Assembly (NCBI GenBank): GCA_020354595.1
Contig: CP070650.1
Span: forward strand, 2,142,400 to 2,154,716
Direction of reading: 5' to 3'
Length of the DNA: 12,317 nt
Source of the DNA: Myxococcales bacterium
GTDB taxonomy: Bacteria; Myxococcota_A; Polyangia; Polyangiales; Houyiibacteriaceae
Below, piece after piece: positions 1,733 through 12,317 of the stretch (position 1 is its first letter; each line of letters begins with the position of its first letter). A program made the translations under genes and the position numbers. The notes under the pieces were generated by a model. It saw only the letters and a program-made list of their open reading frames with translations, did not search any database and was not told where the DNA came from.

Positions 1733-2227
1733 TCACACGCGTCGCCGCAGAACGCGAAAAGTCACCCCCTCGGTCTCTCCCGCCCGACTCTCCACTTCCT
1801 CGAAGTCCGGCAAGTCGGTTGGAAAGAACGTATCCCCTTCCACCTCCTCGTCGATCGTCGTCAAGTAGAGCTCGGTCGCCAGTGGGAGGGCTTCCAAATA
1901 CAGGCTGGCGCCGCCGATGATGAACGGACACTCGTCGGTAGTCCTGGCGAGCGCGATCGCCTCTTCGAGGCTGCCAGCCGTTTCACAACCTTCGAACGCC
2001 GCGCCGCTTCGCGTCACCACGATGTTCCGCCGCTTGGGGAGCGCACGGCCGATCGATTCGTGGGTCTTGCGGCCCATGATGATCGTGTGGCCGCTGGTGG
2101 TCCTCTTGAAGTGCTTGAGGTCCTCGGAGACGTGCCAAGGAAGATCGCCGCTGCGGCCGATTACGCCGTTACGTGCCACCGCCACGATCAACGCGAGCGG
2201 GGCTTGGGTGCTCCTCACATCGGTCAC
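1733..2227 (-). CDS. folA: Dihydrofolate reductase
   Basis: NADPH-dependent reduction of dihydrofolate to tetrahydrofolate in the cytoplasm. At 164 aa it has the usual bacterial length (E. coli 159). The N-terminal strand carries the Met20-loop region ([11 protein letters not shown], 22-32). The acidic active-site residue is D36 in SEDLKHFKR, equivalent to E. coli D27. The NADPH-binding segment [10 protein letters not shown] is at 51-60, the folate-carboxylate arginine is R66 in LPKRRN, and FIIGGASLY (102-110) holds the conserved Gly-Gly. The start codon is GTG (2227-2225) and overlaps the thyA stop as GTGA, with GGTGG about six bases upstream, so translation is probably coupled to thyA. Pairing with thyA fits its role in recycling the dihydrofolate that ThyA produces. 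It is the last gene of the unit and runs into the palindrome-rich region shared with the peptidase gene. Confidence 0.95.
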
Positions 2228-3066
2228 ACCGCCACCGGAGCTTTGATGCGCGGGTAGGGGAGGTAGTCCTTCAGCTGGAAGTGCTCGTACCGAAAGTCGT
2301 AGAGATCCTTCACATCGGGGTCGATCACCATCGTAGGCAGCGGGCGCGGTCGGCGCGAGAGCTGAAGGCGCGCCTGCTCGATGTGGTTGCTGTATAAATG
2401 GACGTCGCCGAACGTGTGAATGAACTCGCCAGGCTGGAGCCCGGATACCGAGGCGATCATCATGTTGAGAAGGGCGTAGCTCGCGATATTGAAGGGAACC
2501 CCCAAGAAGACGTCTGCGCTGCGCTGATAGAGCTGGCAGCTCAAACGGCCATCGCTAACGTAAAACTGGAACAGGGTGTGACAAGGGGGTAGGGCGACGC
2601 GCTCGGCTTCGAGTGGATTCCAGCCCGAGATGATGAGCCGACGGCTTTGCGGGTTGGTCTGAATCTGCTCGAGCACGTAGGAGAGCTGGTCGAATCCGTC
2701 GCGCTCGTAGGAGCCGTCTTTTCGCTTGGTGGCTCCGAAATTGCGCCACTGATGACCGTAAACCGGTCCGAGGTCGCCCTCTTTTCGGCCAAACCTGGCG
2801 GTCTGCTCCGCCGTCGCCCACTCGTCCCAGATCGTCACCCCGACCTCTTGCAGATGACTCACGTGGGTTTGGCCGCGGATGAACCAAAGCAGCTCGTGGA
2901 TGATCGACTTGAGATGGACCTTCTTGGTCGTGAGCAGTGGAAAGCCGTCCCGAAGGTCCATCCGCATCTGATAGCCGAAGAGGCTCTTGGTGCCGGTGCC
3001 CGTGCGGTCGTCGCGCTCGACGCCTTCGTCCAGCACCTTGCGCAACAAGTCCAGGTACGCCTGCAT
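2224..3066 (-). CDS. thyA: Thymidylate synthase (ThyA type)
   Basis: Converts dUMP to dTMP using methylene-tetrahydrofolate, releasing dihydrofolate. It is 280 aa, against 264 in E. coli, with a modest insertion around residues 84-125. Visible family residues are R21 in DRTGTGT (phosphate binding), W61 in HELLWFIRG, the catalytic C162 in [16 protein letters not shown] at 141-143, the dUMP-binding asparagine N193 in [10 protein letters not shown], and H223/Y225 in DVHLYSNH. The conserved C-terminus ends in a short hydrophobic tail (KAPVAV). The ATG lies four bases after the stop of the upstream MCE gene, and its own stop overlaps folA by four bases, so it sits inside a tight polycistronic unit. 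No flavin-dependent ThyX is present in this window. Confidence 0.97.
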
Positions 3067-5692: not shown

Positions 5693-6346
5693 ATGGCATT
5701 TTCGCTTTCGCCGGAACGTGAAGAACAGGTCGAAGAGATCTTGACCCGCTATCCGGAGCGTCGAGCGGCGCTCTTGCCGGTTCTGTGGCTATGCCAGCGG
5801 CAGAAGGGCTGGATCAGTCCAGACGTCGTGGACTACGTCTCCGGGCGCCTCGGGCTCTCGACCGCGGTCGTCAAAGGCGTGGTGACGTTCTACACGATGT
5901 TCTTTGACGAGCCGGTCGGTGAGAACGTCGTCTGGGTCTGCCGCACGCTTTCCTGCGATCTCCGAGGAGGCAAGGTGATCCAGGAGCACCTCGAGAAGAA
6001 GCTCGGATGCACGGCCGGCCACACGAGCTCCGACGGCAGGTTCACGCTCCTCAAGGCGGAATGCCTCGCGGCGTGCGGCCAGGCGCCGATGGTTCAGATC
6101 AACGACTACTACTACGAGAACCTCGACACTGAGCTGCTCGATCGCATCCTCGACGCCCATGCGACCAAGGGCGCGGAAGCCGCCGCGGCCGAGTTCTCGA
6201 CGTTTGCGACCTTTGCCAGCTCGCGCCAAAGCCCAGGGGTTTCCAAGAGCTCAGCGCCCCCGCCTCCGAGCAAGGAGGCCGTGCGCTTGGCTTCCCAACC
6301 GCCCTCTGCGGCCGGGCCCACCAACGCTGGCGGTGACGAGTCATGA
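5693..6346 (+). CDS. nuoE: NADH-quinone oxidoreductase subunit E (24 kDa, [2Fe-2S])
   Basis: Peripheral-arm subunit of complex I that carries the binuclear cluster N1a beside NuoF. The N-terminal helical bundle (about 8-70) is followed by a thioredoxin-like domain. The cluster ligands are C83, C88, C124 and C128, in the patterns C-x4-C and C-x3-C (CRTLSC and CLAACG). It is 217 aa against 166 in E. coli. The extra length is a C-terminal tail (about 168-217) rich in Ala, Ser and Pro and probably disordered. The ATG at 5693 has no Shine-Dalgarno sequence, and the candidate promoter places the mRNA start just upstream. The stop overlaps the nuoF start by four bases (ATGA). nuoA to nuoD, which usually precede nuoE, are absent from the upstream side. 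Confidence 0.95.
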   Translation: MAFSLSPEREEQVEEILTRYPERRAALLPVLWLCQRQKGWISPDVVDYVSGRLGLSTAVVKGVVTFYTMFFDEPVGENVVWVCRTLSCDLRGGKVIQEHLEKKLGCTAGHTSSDGRFTLLKAECLAACGQAPMVQINDYYYENLDTELLDRILDAHATKGAEAAAAEFSTFATFASSRQSPGVSKSSAPPPPSKEAVRLASQPPSAAGPTNAGGDES

Positions 6347-7719
6347 GCGAGCCGGTCAAGCCTCTGCTCACCGCTCGGTACGGCATCGCCGAGAGCTGGA
6401 AGCTCGTCAACGCAGAGCGTGCCGGTGCTTATCAAGTCGCGCGCCAAGCCCTCACCACCCGCGAGCCTGCCGAGCTCAAAGAAGAAGTCAAAAAGGCCAA
6501 CATTCGGGGCCGCAGAGGCGCCGGCTTCCCTGCGGGTGTGAAGTGGGGCTTCCTCAACCCGCAGGAGGGGGAGCATGTCTACCTCGTCGTCAACGCGGAC
6601 GAGAGTGAGCCCGGCACCTTCAAGGATCGGAGCATCATGGATTTGGACCCCCATCGGCTCATCGAAGGGGCGATCATCTCTTGCTACGCAATCGGCGCTC
6701 CGGTCGCGTACATCTACGTACGGGGCGAGCTCGCGTTTTCGATCGATCGTCTCGAGCAGGCGATCGCCGAAGCGCGGGAGGCAGGCTACCTCGGGGAGCG
6801 TCCCTTCGGCGTCGACCACCCGATCGACGTACACGTACACTCCGGCGCCGGGGCCTACATCTGCGGTGAAGAGACCGCGCTTCTCAACTCGCTCGAGGGG
6901 CGCCGCGGCGAGCCTCGGCTCAAGCCGCCATTCCCTGCGATCAAGGGCGTCTTCGGCATGCCGACGATCGTCAACAACGTCGAGACGATCGCTTCGGTGC
7001 CCGACATCGTCGAAATGGGCGGTGACGCGTGGGCGTCACTCAGCCACCTTCCGGGAGACGGTGGCGTTCGCATCTATGGCGTCAGCGGTCACGTGAAGAA
7101 CCCCGGCCTCTTCGAGGCGCCCGTCGGCATCACCATGCGGGAGCTAATCGATGACTACGCGGGCGGGATGCTCGGTGACAGGCCGCTCAAAGCCGTGATT
7201 CCGGGAGGCTCTTCCACGCCGGTGCTCGACCCCCGCCGCAAGGTCGACGCGCCGAATCACGATCACCCGCTGCACAAATGGCACGGGCAAAGCGAGATCG
7301 ACGTCCCGATGGGCGTCGATACCTATCGCGCGCTCGGCACGATGCTCGGCACCTGCTGCGCCAGCGTGATGGGCGACACCGTCCAGATGGTCGAGGCCTG
7401 CCGCAACTTGATGCGCTTCTACAAGCACGAGTCGTGCGGACAATGTACCCCTTGTCGCGAGGGCACCGGTTGGCTGGTGGACGTGCTCGACAACTTGGTC
7501 GGCGGGCGTGGCAAGCCCGAGGACGTCGACCTGTTGGTCAACATCGCTAACAACATGATGGGCAACACGATCTGCGCATTTGCCGACGGCACCGCGATGC
7601 CGATGCTCGGCATGGTTCAGAAATTTCGCGAGGAGTTCCTCGAGGCCGCGGTAAGTGGGCTCCCTCAGGGCGCACGTCACGACGACAGTGTTCGAAGCAT
7701 GGTGGAGGGGGTCGCGTGA
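6343..7719 (+). CDS. nuoF: NADH-quinone oxidoreductase subunit F (51 kDa, NADH/FMN, [4Fe-4S])
   Basis: Catalytic NADH-oxidising subunit of complex I. It binds NADH, FMN and cluster N3. The glycine-rich GRRGAGFPAG (56-65) is the nucleotide/flavin motif, VVNADESEPGTFKDR (82-96) contacts NADH/FMN, and GAGAYICGEETALLNSLEG (168-186) is the second flavin region. The N3 ligands are C365, C368 and C371 in ESCGQCTPCREG plus C411 in NTICAF. The length of 458 aa is normal. The wording GGSSTP and MLGT resembles Thermus Nqo1 more than E. coli. An insert of about 17-20 residues at 297-316, rich in His, Pro and Asp (NHDHPLHKWHG), separates PGGSSTPVLD from DVPM. GGTGA-like bases precede the ATG, which overlaps the nuoE stop. 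Its own stop overlaps the nuoJ GTG. nuoG does not follow. Confidence 0.97.
   Translation: MSEPVKPLLTARYGIAESWKLVNAERAGAYQVARQALTTREPAELKEEVKKANIRGRRGAGFPAGVKWGFLNPQEGEHVYLVVNADESEPGTFKDRSIMDLDPHRLIEGAIISCYAIGAPVAYIYVRGELAFSIDRLEQAIAEAREAGYLGERPFGVDHPIDVHVHSGAGAYICGEETALLNSLEGRRGEPRLKPPFPAIKGVFGMPTIVNNVETIASVPDIVEMGGDAWASLSHLPGDGGVRIYGVSGHVKNPGLFEAPVGITMRELIDDYAGGMLGDRPLKAVIPGGSSTPVLDPRRKVDAPNHDHPLHKWHGQSEIDVPMGVDTYRALGTMLGTCCASVMGDTVQMVEACRNLMRFYKHESCGQCTPCREGTGWLVDVLDNLVGGRGKPEDVDLLVNIANNMMGNTICAFADGTAMPMLGMVQKFREEFLEAAVSGLPQGARHDDSVRSMVEGVA
7704..7708 (+). promoter_or_regulatory. Ribosome binding site that fixes the nuoJ GTG start
   Basis: GGAGG inside the 3' end of nuoF lies seven bases before the GTG at 7716. 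It supports that GTG rather than the later ATG at 7737. Confidence 0.6.
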
Positions 7720-8219
7720 CGATTCCCGGCGCAACGATGTTCGTCGTGACGGCGATCTTCGCCATCGCAGGGGGGCTGATCACCATTTGGTCGAAGCGCC
7801 CGCTCCGCGCGGCGATCGGCCTCCTCATTCACATCATCTCGCTCTCCGGGATGTTCCTCACCCTGAACGCGCACCTGATGGCCGTGCTTCAGCTGCTCGT
7901 GTACGCCGGCGCGGTCGTCGTCTTGTTCGTATTCGTCATCATGTTGATCGGGCCGGCCGCGGAAGTCGGGCCGATCCAAGGGCGCCTCGCCCCGCGGACT
8001 CTGAGCATCGCCATGGTGGTCGCCGTAGTGCTCGCTCTGTCAACCTCGGTGGCCTATTTCGACGCGCCGTGGGCGGAGCTTCCCGAGGATTTCGGGACGG
8101 TCGAGGGGTTGGGAACGGCGATCTATCAGCAGGCCGCCGTTCCGTTCGAGGTGATCTCGATCACGTTGCTGGTGGCGATCATCGGAGCCATCGCGGTCGC
8201 GCGGAGCCGGACGGAGTAG
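7716..8219 (+). CDS. nuoJ: NADH-quinone oxidoreductase subunit J
   Basis: Membrane-arm subunit of complex I, 167 aa with five predicted membrane helices (about 9-26, 31-50, 55-79, 92-112 and 144-163). The hallmark third helix reads VLQLLVYAGAVVVLFVFVIM, with Y63 and G65 matching E. coli Y59 and G61, where the pi-bulge involved in coupling quinone reduction to pumping lies. The start is GTG, overlapping the nuoF stop by four bases with a GGAGG site upstream. In most genomes nuoJ follows nuoI; here it directly follows nuoF, although the junction is as tight as a normal operon junction. Confidence 0.94.
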   Translation: MTIPGATMFVVTAIFAIAGGLITIWSKRPLRAAIGLLIHIISLSGMFLTLNAHLMAVLQLLVYAGAVVVLFVFVIMLIGPAAEVGPIQGRLAPRTLSIAMVVAVVLALSTSVAYFDAPWAELPEDFGTVEGLGTAIYQQAAVPFEVISITLLVAIIGAIAVARSRTE

Positions 8220-8226
8220 GGCGACG

Positions 8227-8529
8227 ATGGGCATTGGTACGTACCTGGCTCTGGCTTCAGTCCTGTTCGGCATCGGCGCCGCCGGCTTTCTGGTCCGCCG
8301 CAACATGCTGGTTCAGCTCATGTCGATCGAGCTCATGCTCAACTCGGTCAACGTGCTCTTGCTGGCCTTCAACCGCGCCTATCCCGGCAACCACGACGGC
8401 CAGCTCTTTGCGTTTTTCGTCATTGCGGTGGCCGCCGCCGAGCTGGTCATCGGTCTTTCGATTCTGATCGCTTACTACCGCATCAAGAAGACCCTCGATA
8501 CCGACGAAGCGACCCTGCTGAAGTATTGA
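8227..8529 (+). CDS. nuoK: NADH-quinone oxidoreductase subunit K
   Basis: Small membrane-arm subunit of complex I related to MrpC. It is exactly 100 aa, as in E. coli, with three membrane helices (about 3-22, 29-48 and 60-83). The two conserved membrane glutamates of the proton path are present: E35 in LMSIELMLNSVN and E72 in AAAELVIGL. The ATG lies seven bases after the nuoJ stop, with GGAG overlapping the end of nuoJ as its ribosome site. Confidence 0.96.
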   Translation: MGIGTYLALASVLFGIGAAGFLVRRNMLVQLMSIELMLNSVNVLLLAFNRAYPGNHDGQLFAFFVIAVAAAELVIGLSILIAYYRIKKTLDTDEATLLKY

Positions 8530-8533
8530 ATCC

Positions 8534-10414
8534 ATGCACCTAGAAGCTCCTCAGCAGATACTGCTCCTCTTGATCATCCTGTTTCCGCTGGGCGGGGCGA
8601 TCGTCAACGGTTTGTTGGGACGCTATTTGCCGAAGGGACTCGTCACCCTGGTCGCGGTCGGGTCGGTCGCAGTCTCCTTCTCGCTGGCGGTCTTGTCTTT
8701 CGTCGAGCTGTACGGTCTGAGCCACGATGCCCAGCATGCGGCGCTCGCCTACCACTTCTACGAGTGGTTCTCGGTGAAGATTCCGAACGGCACCGTCGTT
8801 CCGATCAACGTCCGATTCATGATGGACTCGTTGAGCGGTGTCATGACGCTCGTCGTCACGGGCGTCGGAGGGCTCATCCACCTCTACAGCGTCGGCTACA
8901 TGGGCGAGGACGAGGGCTACCCGAGGTTCATGAGCTTCCTGAACCTGTTCATGGCCTCGATGCTGATCTTGGTCCTCGGCAGCAGCATGCCAGTGATGTT
9001 CATCGGCTGGGAGGGCGTGGGGCTCTGCTCATACCTGTTGATCGGCTTCTGGTACGAAAACCGCGACTACGCCGCGGCAGGTCGCAAGGCGTTCGTCATG
9101 AACCGAATCGGCGACTTCGGCGTCCTCATCGGAATGTTCGTTCTCGTGAGCGTGGTGGGATCGTTCGAGTTCGTCGACATCAATCACGCGGCCATGAACG
9201 GCGACCTTCGAGGGGACTTCCCGGTGTGGATTCTCGGCGTGGCGCCGAGCCTGGCGACGGTCGCCTGCTTGTTCCTCTTCCTCGGGTGCACCGGTAAGAG
9301 CGCACAGATTCCGCTCTACGTTTGGCTACCGGATGCAATGGCGGGTCCGACGCCCGTGTCGGCCCTCATTCATGCCGCGACGATGGTGACTGCGGGCGTG
9401 TATCTCTGTTGCCGGCTCTCGCCGCTGTTCATCACTTCCGACGTTGCCATGTCGGTCATCGCGGTGATCGGCACGCTCACCGCGCTGTTGGCCGCCTCGA
9501 TTGCGGTGGCCCAGCGCGAGATGAAGAAGATCCTCGCGTACTCCACCGTCAGCCAGCTCGGTTTCATGTTCGCGGCGGTTGGCGTCGGCTTCTTCGCCGC
9601 GGGGTTCTTCCACGTTTTCACGCACGCGTTCTTCAAGGCATGCTTGTTCCTAGGCGCCGGCTCCGTGATGCATGCGGTCCACGCGCACGGCGACGCCGAC
9701 ATCTTCAAGCTTGGCGGAATGGGCAAATACACGCCCACCACTCGTTGGACCTTCCTCGCGAGCTGTCTGGCCATCGCAGGCTTCCCGCTCACCAGTGGTT
9801 TCTTCTCCAAGGACGAGATCCTGCTCGGCGCGGCCGCGCAGATCTACCGGGACGACGGCGCGTTGATGCAGGGGGTCGGCTGGTTCGTGCTCATCGGACT
9901 CACGCTCGCTGCCGTGATGACCGCGTTCTACATGTTCCGCCTCTACTTCCTCACGTTCACCGGCGAGTACCGAAGCGCCGATCAGTCGGGTGACCATCCG
10001 TACGATGCGCACCCGCACGAGTCGCCGCCGAGCATGACCATCCCGCTCATCGTGTTGGCGTGGGCGCGCTGGTGGTTGGCTTCCTCGGCCTACCGCACGT
10101 CATGCCGGTCACCGGCATTCACCTTCCGAGCTGGTGGAGCCACTGGATGCACAGCTCGGTGGCCGGACAGCCGGTTCCCGAGGAGTTGCACATCGTCAAT
10201 CTCGCCTCGGGACTCGCTTTCGCCGCGATGGCCGTCGGCATCAGCGCCGCTTGGGTGCTCTATCGCAACAAGAGCGAGGACGTGCTGGAGAAGAAGATCC
10301 CCGCGCGCATCTACCAACTGGCGTTTGAGAAGTGGCGTGTCGACGAGCTGTACGCCGCCACCGTCGTCAATCCGATCAGGCGCATGGCGACGGTCGCAGG
10401 CCATGCTGACATGA
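8534..10414 (+). CDS. nuoL: NADH-quinone oxidoreductase subunit L, main part; frameshifted after residue 509
   Basis: Antiporter-like proton-pumping subunit of complex I. Residues 1-509 are ordinary NuoL with about 14 membrane helices. Key residues are E160 in FIGWEGVGLCSYLLIG, K255 in GKSAQIPLYVWLPDAMAGPTPVSALIHAATMVTAG, K332 in KKILAYSTVSQLGFM, H364 and K368 in FTHAFFKACLFLGAG, and K426 in FSKDEIL. After MTIPLIVLA (501-509) the frame reads 117 residues of Arg/Ser-rich, non-membrane sequence up to the stop at 10412-10414. That stretch is not NuoL. The true continuation is in another frame from 10060. Adding one base near 10058-10062 (or re-reading G10060) gives LAVGALVVGF, as expected. The ATG lies four bases after nuoK, without a clear ribosome site. 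The restored protein would be 867 aa, encoded across 8534-11136. Confidence 0.93.
   Translation: MHLEAPQQILLLLIILFPLGGAIVNGLLGRYLPKGLVTLVAVGSVAVSFSLAVLSFVELYGLSHDAQHAALAYHFYEWFSVKIPNGTVVPINVRFMMDSLSGVMTLVVTGVGGLIHLYSVGYMGEDEGYPRFMSFLNLFMASMLILVLGSSMPVMFIGWEGVGLCSYLLIGFWYENRDYAAAGRKAFVMNRIGDFGVLIGMFVLVSVVGSFEFVDINHAAMNGDLRGDFPVWILGVAPSLATVACLFLFLGCTGKSAQIPLYVWLPDAMAGPTPVSALIHAATMVTAGVYLCCRLSPLFITSDVAMSVIAVIGTLTALLAASIAVAQREMKKILAYSTVSQLGFMFAAVGVGFFAAGFFHVFTHAFFKACLFLGAGSVMHAVHAHGDADIFKLGGMGKYTPTTRWTFLASCLAIAGFPLTSGFFSKDEILLGAAAQIYRDDGALMQGVGWFVLIGLTLAAVMTAFYMFRLYFLTFTGEYRSADQSGDHPYDAHPHESPPSMTIPLIVLAWARWWLASSAYRTSCRSPAFTFRAGGATGCTARWPDSRFPRSCTSSISPRDSLSPRWPSASAPLGCSIATRARTCWRRRSPRASTNWRLRSGVSTSCTPPPSSIRSGAWRRSQAMLT
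10051..10066 (+). other. Probable single-base deletion causing the nuoL frameshift
   Basis: The stretch GTGTTGGCGTGGGC would read GTG-TTG-GCG-GTG-GGC with one extra G. That joins VLA to VGALVVGFLGLP, which is how NuoL continues. Both sides are fully intact open frames, so this looks like either a base-calling or assembly error in a G-rich spot or a very recent mutation. Confidence 0.75.
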
Positions 10415-11136
10415 CCTTCGTCGACGCCCTCATGACCAAGTTGCCGAGCTTCAACGCCCGCGAGAGCGGGCGAGCCCTCGCGCGCATGCAAAACGGTGTC
10501 GTGCAGATGTACGGCACGGTCATGGTCGTGGGCGTCGCCGCGGTGATGGCGTGGTATTGGACCCCGCACTCGCGCATCGAGGCCGAGTTCGATGGCTCGA
10601 ACGTCGCGCTCACGACGCCTCGAGGCCTTGGCTACGAATATCGCTGGGACGCCAACTCGGACGGTGAGTTCGAGACCGATTGGGGTAGCGCGGCTTCTAC
10701 CTCGTTCGAGTACGGAGACGACGACATCGTGGGTGTGGCCGTCTTCCTCGCCGACAGCCGGTCCGGTATCGAGAAACGGGTGAAGGTGTCGGACAAATGG
10801 GTTCCGCTGCCCATCGGGTCCGTCATTCCCAGGGAGCTCCTGTCCCCTCAACAGCAAGGCTTCGAGGTTCGCGTCGATGGGCGAGACCTGCTCTTCCGCC
10901 AGCCGCTCGCCGAGACCCGGACGACCGGGAGTAGGGAAATGCGTCTTCCGATGGGACGCAAAGGGCGGCTCGGCGCCGCTCGCGTCTTCACACGGCCGCT
11001 CGTCGAAGCCACGGTCGAGGTTCGCAATGCCTTTGGCAACACCCGCGTTGCCACCAAGGAGATCGCGTTGCCGTTCGAGGTCGGGGAACCCGCCCACGCC
11101 TCGCTGATGCAACCAACCCGTGAGGCGCTTCGATGA
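10060..11136 (+). CDS. nuoL: NuoL C-terminal part with a long PKD/Ig-like extension (continuation of nuoL)
   Basis: This 358-residue frame continues nuoL and is not a separate gene; the GTG at 10060 is an internal codon. Residues 1-13 finish one membrane helix, about 43-67 form the next, and about 70-150 hold the long lateral helix region with the NuoL landmark KWRVDELYAATVVNPIRR (91-108). Residues 152-168 are the last membrane helix. In a normal NuoL the protein ends here. Instead about 190 further residues follow. YEYRWDANSDGEFE (192-205) and the strand-turn pattern VGVAVFLADSRSGIEKRV (224-241) resemble a PKD domain, with a D-x-N-x-D-G metal-loop-like element. Residues 267-340 give more beta strands, ending ATVEVRNAFGNTRVATKEI. 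By the known NuoL topology this end is periplasmic. The stop overlaps nuoM by four bases, so the extension lies within the operon layout. Confidence 0.85.
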   Translation: MGALVVGFLGLPHVMPVTGIHLPSWWSHWMHSSVAGQPVPEELHIVNLASGLAFAAMAVGISAAWVLYRNKSEDVLEKKIPARIYQLAFEKWRVDELYAATVVNPIRRMATVAGHADMTFVDALMTKLPSFNARESGRALARMQNGVVQMYGTVMVVGVAAVMAWYWTPHSRIEAEFDGSNVALTTPRGLGYEYRWDANSDGEFETDWGSAASTSFEYGDDDIVGVAVFLADSRSGIEKRVKVSDKWVPLPIGSVIPRELLSPQQQGFEVRVDGRDLLFRQPLAETRTTGSREMRLPMGRKGRLGAARVFTRPLVEATVEVRNAFGNTRVATKEIALPFEVGEPAHASLMQPTREALR

Positions 11137-12317
11137 ACACGCACATCCTCACCTGGTTGCTCGTCGTACCGGCGCTCAGTGCGCTGGTTATTCTCCTCTT
11201 ACCGCGCTGGTGGGAGGGCACGATTCGCCGCTTCTCGATCGGCGCAATGCTGGTCGAGCTCGTACTCAGCCTACGTTTGCTCTTCGCCGACTACTCGACC
11301 GCTGCGTACAACTTCGTCGAGCACGTCGTCTGGGTTGAGTCGTTCGGGATCTCGTACAAGGTCGGTGTAGACGGGCTTTCGCTCTGGCTCGTCATTCTGA
11401 CGACGGCGCTCTCACCCGTGGCCCTCTACGCATCGTGGGGCAGCATCACGACCCGCATCAAGGAGTACGCGTTCTCGTTCCTGCTGCTGGAGCTCGGGAT
11501 GCTCGGCGCATTCCTCGCGCTCGACCTCTTCCTGTTCTACGTGTTCTGGGAGCTGATGCTGGTACCCATGTACCTGATCATCGGCGTTTGGGGTGGCAAG
11601 GACCGTGTCTACGCGGCGGTGAAGTTCTTCATCTACACGATGGTCGGCAGCCTGTTGATGCTGATCGCCATCCTCTACGTCGTCGCCAGCTACGAGCAGC
11701 TCGCCGGGCACTACACGTTCGACCTTCAAGAGCTGTCGAGCCTGGTCTTGCCCGCGCTGCCCCAGTATTTGTGCTTTGCCGCGTTTGCGCTGGCGTTTGC
11801 GATCAAGGTGCCGATGTTCCCATTCCACACCTGGTTGCCCGATGCGCACGTTCAGGCGCCGACCGGGGGCTCGGTCATCCTCGCCGCGGTCCTGCTCAAG
11901 CTCGGCATCTACGGCTTCATCCGGTTTGCGATGCCGCTCTTTCCGGTGGCGAGCCAAGCGCTCGGTCCCCTCCTCGCGGGTCTCGGTGTCGTGGGCATCA
12001 TCTACGGCGCCTACACCGCGTGGGTGCAGCGCGACCTGAAGAAGCTGATCGCCTACAGCTCGGTGAGCCACATGGGCTTCATCTTGTTGGGCCTCTTCGC
12101 CATGAACCGGACGGGAATCTCCGGGGCGATATTGCAGATGATCAACCACGGGATTTCAACCGGCGCGCTCTTCCTTCTCGTCGGCGTGATCTACGATCGA
12201 CGTCACACCCGCATGCTCGACGACTTTGGCGGGCTCGCGAAGGTGATGCCCTGGTACACGTTGTTCTTCGTCATCATCACGATGAGCTCGATCGGGCTTC
12301 CGGGCACCAACGGCTTC
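11133..12317 (+). CDS. nuoM: NADH-quinone oxidoreductase subunit M (partial, 3' end beyond the window)
   Basis: Antiporter-like proton-pumping membrane subunit of complex I. The first 395 codons are present and open to the window edge; the family is about 500 aa, so roughly the last 100-130 residues are missing. Landmarks: the opening helix (5-24), VGVDGLSLWLVILTT (78-92), E140 in FYVFWELMLVPMYLIIG (equivalent to E. coli E144), K225 in FAIKVPMFPFHTWLPDAH, K256 in LLKLGIYGFIRF, DLKKLIAYSSVSHMGF (301-316), H338 in QMINHGIS and IGLPGTNGF at the cut. The start ATG overlaps the nuoL stop (ATGA), with GAGG a few bases upstream. nuoN would be expected next, outside the window. Confidence 0.96.
   Translation, partial: MNTHILTWLLVVPALSALVILLLPRWWEGTIRRFSIGAMLVELVLSLRLLFADYSTAAYNFVEHVVWVESFGISYKVGVDGLSLWLVILTTALSPVALYASWGSITTRIKEYAFSFLLLELGMLGAFLALDLFLFYVFWELMLVPMYLIIGVWGGKDRVYAAVKFFIYTMVGSLLMLIAILYVVASYEQLAGHYTFDLQELSSLVLPALPQYLCFAAFALAFAIKVPMFPFHTWLPDAHVQAPTGGSVILAAVLLKLGIYGFIRFAMPLFPVASQALGPLLAGLGVVGIIYGAYTAWVQRDLKKLIAYSSVSHMGFILLGLFAMNRTGISGAILQMINHGISTGALFLLVGVIYDRRHTRMLDDFGGLAKVMPWYTLFFVIITMSSIGLPGTNGF

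Follow-up and report, generated by a model that had tools for sequence, protein, structure and literature searches.

The window analysed here is a stretch of 12,317 nucleotides from a Myxococcales bacterium of the order Polyangiales (GCA_020354595.1, contig CP070650.1, positions 2,142,400 to 2,154,716 of the forward strand). It carries the gene for NuoL, a core pump subunit of respiratory complex I, and the encoded protein continues for 190 residues (10564-11133) beyond helix 16, the last transmembrane helix (TMH) of NuoL. This extension very probably places a periplasmic PKD module on NuoL. With good confidence, we describe it as one PKD domain (tail residues approximately 1-51 and 148-172) interrupted by an FHA-like insert of approximately 95 residues (Table 1).

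The nuoL gene is read in two frames in the window, the second of which is an open reading frame (ORF) of 358 amino acids in the ORF list (10060-11136, plus strand). Residues 10-509 of the first piece match the NuoL model TIGR01974 with 572.9 bits, above the cut-off of 407.5. The second scores 53.9 bits (E = 1.5e-14) over residues 2-166, which correspond to positions 471-629 of the 630 in the model, and the last 190 residues therefore lie beyond it. In 12 genomes of the same genus nuoL is a single open frame of 867-894 amino acids, so the frameshift near 10.05 kb is local to this genome; we infer a sequencing error in the source assembly, which is a single contig with a given completeness of 66.8%. 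In four more genomes of the genus the open frame is shorter, and the match lies close to the end of a contig or at it. The intact frames also rule out that the tail is a separate gene joined to nuoL by the frameshift.

An intact relative from the same genus (L112, 871 amino acids) aligns with Escherichia coli NuoL (3rko, 613 amino acids) over its residues 10-677 and with Nqo12 of Thermus thermophilus (4he8) over residues 11-678. Because these alignments extend only to residues 677 and 678, approximately 190 residues are extra. The protein is thus a homologue of NuoL, Nqo12 and ND5, as is also seen in its score above the TIGR01974 cut-off; however, the known chains end at helix 16 or a few residues from it, whereas 190 more residues follow here. 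All 11 NuoL proteins that were read from other classes (L099-L108 and L110, picked for long open frames and not at random) end after helix 16. A first-pass annotation, made from the letters alone, had proposed a NuoL tail of about 190 residues, and both the reading frames and the homologue lengths bear it out.

AlphaFold2, supplied with 28 tails, gives an all-beta model except for short helical turns, with a mean predicted local distance difference test (pLDDT) score of 84.5 and a predicted template modelling score of 0.74; the beta-rich character noted in the first-pass annotation is thus retained. Blocks of the N-terminal PKD piece have pLDDT values of 89-95, and the last 14 residues fall below 50. 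The model has the beta-sandwich fold of PKD domains. The PKD1 domains of 6aem and 4l9d align over 76 and 75 residues, respectively, which are spread over model residues 1 to 172, the alignments of these solved domains reaching as far as residues 171-172.

Profile comparisons with hhalign divide the tail in the same manner. The segment YEYRWDANSDGEFE belongs to a PKD domain, as the first-pass annotation had supposed. The N-terminal piece of that domain matches uninterrupted single-PKD tails of NuoL relatives with a probability of 99.0% (E = 8.6e-18), and tail residues 140-176 match them with 94.4% (E = 8.5e-8). When the two pieces are joined, the match to 17 single-PKD tails rises to 99.5% (E = 4.4e-23, score 125). 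We rejected an arrangement of two Ig/PKD domains in tandem, since residues 55-80 score only 0.4% against the single-PKD tails and the closing strands come approximately 95 residues later. The second beta-rich block, which had been taken for another Ig-like domain, must accordingly be reinterpreted: VRNAFGNTRVATKEI contains the strands that close this one PKD domain.

Assignment to the PKD families PF00801 and PF18911 comes through relatives. The window's own tail matches nothing in Pfam or NCBIfam at E <= 10 and hence no Pfam PKD family, but seven of 28 insert-bearing tails have PF00801 matches at E <= 1, the best of them at 3.9e-4. Among single-PKD NuoL relatives, three of 18 database proteins carry Pfam PKD calls (PF18911 and PF00801), and L096, one of the 17 tails compared above, finds Pfam-called PKD proteins. 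Membership is thus established by homology to Pfam-called tails. In a sequence search of the PDB, the tail profile had no match and the insert profile a single one at E = 1.1. At E <= 0.001, Foldseek matched the whole tail to two chains, both tandem fibronectin chains with root-mean-square deviations near 20, and these matches were not used. The tail is thus predicted to share the fold of the solved PKD domains, but it differs in being interrupted by an insert and attached to a respiratory pump subunit. Tails were collected by regular expressions, a procedure that may miss odd ones, and two non-tail rows (L014 and L083) and the window's own copy (L001) were dropped before motif counts and tree construction.

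The insert is predicted to fold as an FHA-like beta-sandwich and, in the model, sits before the last two strands of the PKD beta-sandwich. Its profile shows weak similarity (54-71%), located in the C-terminal half, to 29 FHA domains from 30 loci, L210 being omitted because it lies at a contig edge. In two tests of 100 column shuffles each, no shuffle scored 50% or higher; the controls were column shuffles and single-PKD tails, with no unrelated beta families among them. None of the 28 tails has a match at E <= 1 to PF00498, the Pfam family of FHA domains. The phosphothreonine site of FHA domains includes the residues GR and SxxH. By patterns written after the sequences had been seen, these motifs are largely absent from the inserts (GR-type in 2 of 28, SxxH in 3 of 28). 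The insert therefore resembles FHA domains in predicted fold and in this profile similarity, but lacks the Pfam match and the phosphothreonine-site motifs, and is predicted to be periplasmic. Matches to PF00498 are numerous in these genomes (60 in G043 and 18 in the window's genome), and such abundant FHA domains are a possible source of the insert.

Table 1. Features of nuoL and its C-terminal extension in the window
Feature	Coordinates	Strand	Basis
nuoL, two frames in the window, break at ~10.05 kb	8534..11136	+	ORF list; TIGR01974; intact same-genus frames
Helix 16 (last TMH of NuoL), starting at QNG and ending just before PH	10489..10563	+	Sequence and alignment with relatives; end coincides with that of solved NuoL chains
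PKD N-terminal piece, tail residues 1-51, with D-x-N-x-D-G-x-x-E	10564..10716	+	hhalign; pLDDT
FHA-like insert, tail residues 52-148 as folded alone	10717..11007	+	Predicted fold
PKD C-terminal piece, closing strands, tail residues ~148-172	11005..11079	+	hhalign; alignment of solved PKD domains
Low-confidence tail end	11080..11133	+	pLDDT block means 56 and 43; dN/dS 0.37 over last 14 residues
nuoM start, cut by window end	11133..12317	+	ORF list; name read from sequence

The ATG of nuoM overlaps the stop codon of nuoL. In the window, nuoL alone was tested against a family model, and other nuo names were read from sequence. By such reading, the region 5693-12317 (plus strand) carries nuoE and nuoF followed directly by nuoJ, nuoK, nuoL and nuoM, with no nuoG, nuoH or nuoI between them. 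On the minus strand (1733-3066), ORFs resembling dihydrofolate reductase and thymidylate synthase, likewise named by reading, overlap by four bases.

Published structures of relatives suggest where the tail would sit. According to PMC7419157, the lateral helix of Mrp, like that of complex I, extends between TMH15 and TMH16 and connects helices on the cytoplasmic side, so TMH16 should exit to the periplasm, in keeping with the periplasmic C-terminus of the first-pass annotation. The mean number of lysines and arginines around helix 16 is 1.80 before it and 0.90 after it (n = 59 tails), a weak sign of topology. The same annotation had placed the extension at the distal tip of the membrane arm. 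As described in PMC8762328, however, the tip is occupied by TMH15 of ND5. At the opposite end of the lateral helix, TMH16 adjoins ND2/NuoN and ND4L/NuoK. The expected position of the tail is therefore close to NuoN and NuoK, probably on the periplasmic face beside them. The same paper reports that NDUFA11, an accessory subunit of mitochondrial complex I, binds beside TMH16, lending stability to the junction between the proximal and distal modules, and, together with PMC8277142, that it makes the in-membrane contact with complex III in mammals.

With the 358-residue second piece as a query, matches at E <= 0.001 were found in 55 of 57 genomes of the order, its own included, and none in G009 or G040. 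The best match reaches at least residue 197, and thus into the tail, in 54 of the 55; the contig of G012 holds residues 316-358 only. Conservation across the order excludes a chance origin of the tail. The last 198 residues, used alone, match 41 of 282 genomes of the phylum, which was the scope of the distribution survey, at E <= 0.01. These comprise 28 of the 43 genomes of the order in that sample and 13 outside it, all of the latter at E = 1.4e-5 or weaker; the three of them that were read (L048, L055 and L058) are other proteins. Some of the 15 genomes of the order that this query missed have diverged single-PKD or PKD-like tails (for example, L121, L122, L123 and L138), so at least part of these misses reflects sensitivity. 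Searching a protein database with the tail gave 80 proteins, all of which are listed as bearing PF00361, the NuoL domain, and a further search yielded 11 NuoL proteins with a tail of the Polyangiaceae type. Records of tailed NuoL include Myxococcales bacterium SG8_38 (L149), Sandaracinaceae (L164, L167, L168 and L174) and an uncultured Sandaracinus (L166). A record titled Verrucomicrobia (L176) has a PKD stretch, but on reading its sequence is not NuoL.

The tail is under purifying selection. Among 11 sequences of the same genus (55 pairs), the median ratio of nonsynonymous to synonymous substitution rates (dN/dS) is 0.133 for the NuoL core, 0.152 for the N-terminal PKD piece (53 usable pairs), 0.315 for the insert, 0.171 for the C-terminal PKD piece (48 pairs) and 0.369 for the last 14 residues (54 pairs), and thus spans 0.15-0.37 within the tail. 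Between the window tail and L003, dN is 0.226 and dS 0.995. The GC content suggested as a check agrees with that of the preceding part of nuoL (0.649 and 0.647, respectively), while GC at third codon positions (0.774) does not, being below that of the four neighbouring stretches measured (0.810-0.878). Despite this lower value, GC content and dN/dS rule out foreign or meaningless DNA.

In a midpoint-rooted tree of the NuoL core, with 50 rows made up of the collected rows longer than 350 residues and six of the 11 other-class proteins, all 27 insert-bearing rows form one clade (ultrafast bootstrap/Shimodaira-Hasegawa-like approximate likelihood ratio test support 100/99). Within it, eight rows of the window's family with longer inserts form a clade of their own (98/94), and a further row of this kind, L031, stands apart. 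Relatives carry an uninterrupted PKD domain as the NuoL tail. In family f16 of the same class, L091, L092 and L095 have a short NuoL tail without a PKD motif, that of L091 being proline-rich at its end, as if the domain had been lost or replaced; L091 is nevertheless included under the tree label 'short'. The simplest reading is that the PKD domain was gained in this class and lost or replaced in f16, that the FHA-like insert was gained once later, and that further inserts followed in some genera.

Several genera of the window's family (L027:1924-2832, L028:1930-2859, L029:1921-2859 and related loci) have tails of approximately 280-290 residues, with an extra stretch of alpha/beta appearance between the N-terminal PKD piece and the FHA-like part, and L031 (family f6) carries its own long insert. 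In family f12 (L115, L116, L122 and L123), NuoL has approximately 840-930 amino acids even though the tail adds only about 90-160. The TIGR01974 match in these proteins spans approximately 720-760 residues, so they have extra stretches inside the core.

We tentatively take the main role of the tail to be that of a clamp, which is quite possible though short of probable. A PKD beta-sandwich that directly follows helix 16, is covalently part of NuoL and lies on the periplasmic face would be a built-in clamp, fastening helix 16, which anchors the lateral helix, to the side of the membrane arm on which NuoN and NuoK lie. Such clamping would help to hold the distal NuoL and NuoM pumps on, and the FHA-like insert would add a surface for protein-protein contacts, perhaps giving the tail an additional role in docking. 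A split PKD/FHA-like periplasmic module that serves as a clamp by this mechanism is our best explanation as a whole, and as a whole it is doubtful. Docking might instead be the main role, with the tail binding a quinol-oxidising complex or its periplasmic cytochrome beside helix 16 in the way that NDUFA11 contacts complex III; we consider this unlikely. An NrfD-family protein, in most cases of approximately 460-570 amino acids, which presumably fits alternative complex III, is found in all 17 genomes tested, and five have a cytochrome b match. However, the three tailless genomes among the 17 (G118, G183 and G204) also have NrfD and lack cytochrome b, so the presence of this partner is not tied to that of the tail. 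The location itself speaks for docking, being the same place on complex I as that of NDUFA11, the mammalian contact with complex III (PMC8762328 and PMC8277142).

Tail lengths range from 85 to 305 residues, some genera have further inserts, and the insert evolves faster (dN/dS 0.315), as would suit an old fusion that is retained without a strong function of its own. Such a tolerated appendage is nonetheless improbable: constraint on the PKD pieces is almost as strong as that on the NuoL core (0.15-0.17 versus 0.13), and the tail is kept in almost all of the genomes of the order examined. We give still less credence to a calcium or envelope sensor or anchor, in which the D-x-N-x-D-G loop would bind calcium, or the module would bind components of the cell wall or outer membrane, and so tether or tune complex I. 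PKD domains are common in extracellular proteins, and the nine-residue motif D-x-[DNE]-x-[DN]-G-x-x-[DEQ] (with a looser variant) occurs in 48 of 59 tails, including every insert-bearing one. However, this pattern was written after the sequences had been seen, and 11 of the 59 tails have lost the motif, ten of them besides L091, which has no PKD motif at all. Its absence from some single-PKD tails indicates that the PKD domain can do without it, and the Pfam search of the tails matched no cell-wall-binding family.

The clamp that we favour has its nearest parallels in NDUFA11 and in TMH17 of Yarrowia ND5, which PMC8762328 likewise describes as additions beside TMH16. Those additions are transmembrane helices, whereas the present one is a soluble beta module that forms part of the NuoL chain itself; a likeness in role is possible, and no homology is claimed. 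It would be a long shot for the module to do the whole job of NDUFA11, both securing the distal pumps and serving as the dock through which a different quinol-oxidising complex joins a supercomplex. In the literature searched (open-licence PMC) there is no description of such a NuoL, and no paper concerns NuoL with a PKD domain. A core respiratory subunit here carries a conserved and apparently undescribed domain extension, and the folds in it are of known types.

The core subunits of complex I are usually viewed as conserved, and what is added to the complex mostly takes the form of separate accessory subunits. In the present lineage it was a core pump subunit that acquired a periplasmic domain, which later took in a second one, and both steps can be placed on the tree. 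The specific spot, at helix 16 on the NuoN/NuoK side, bears on how supercomplex contacts arise. If the NDUFA11-like reading were true, the module would represent an independent and traceable origin of a supercomplex interface, and a reuse of the FHA fold in the periplasm.
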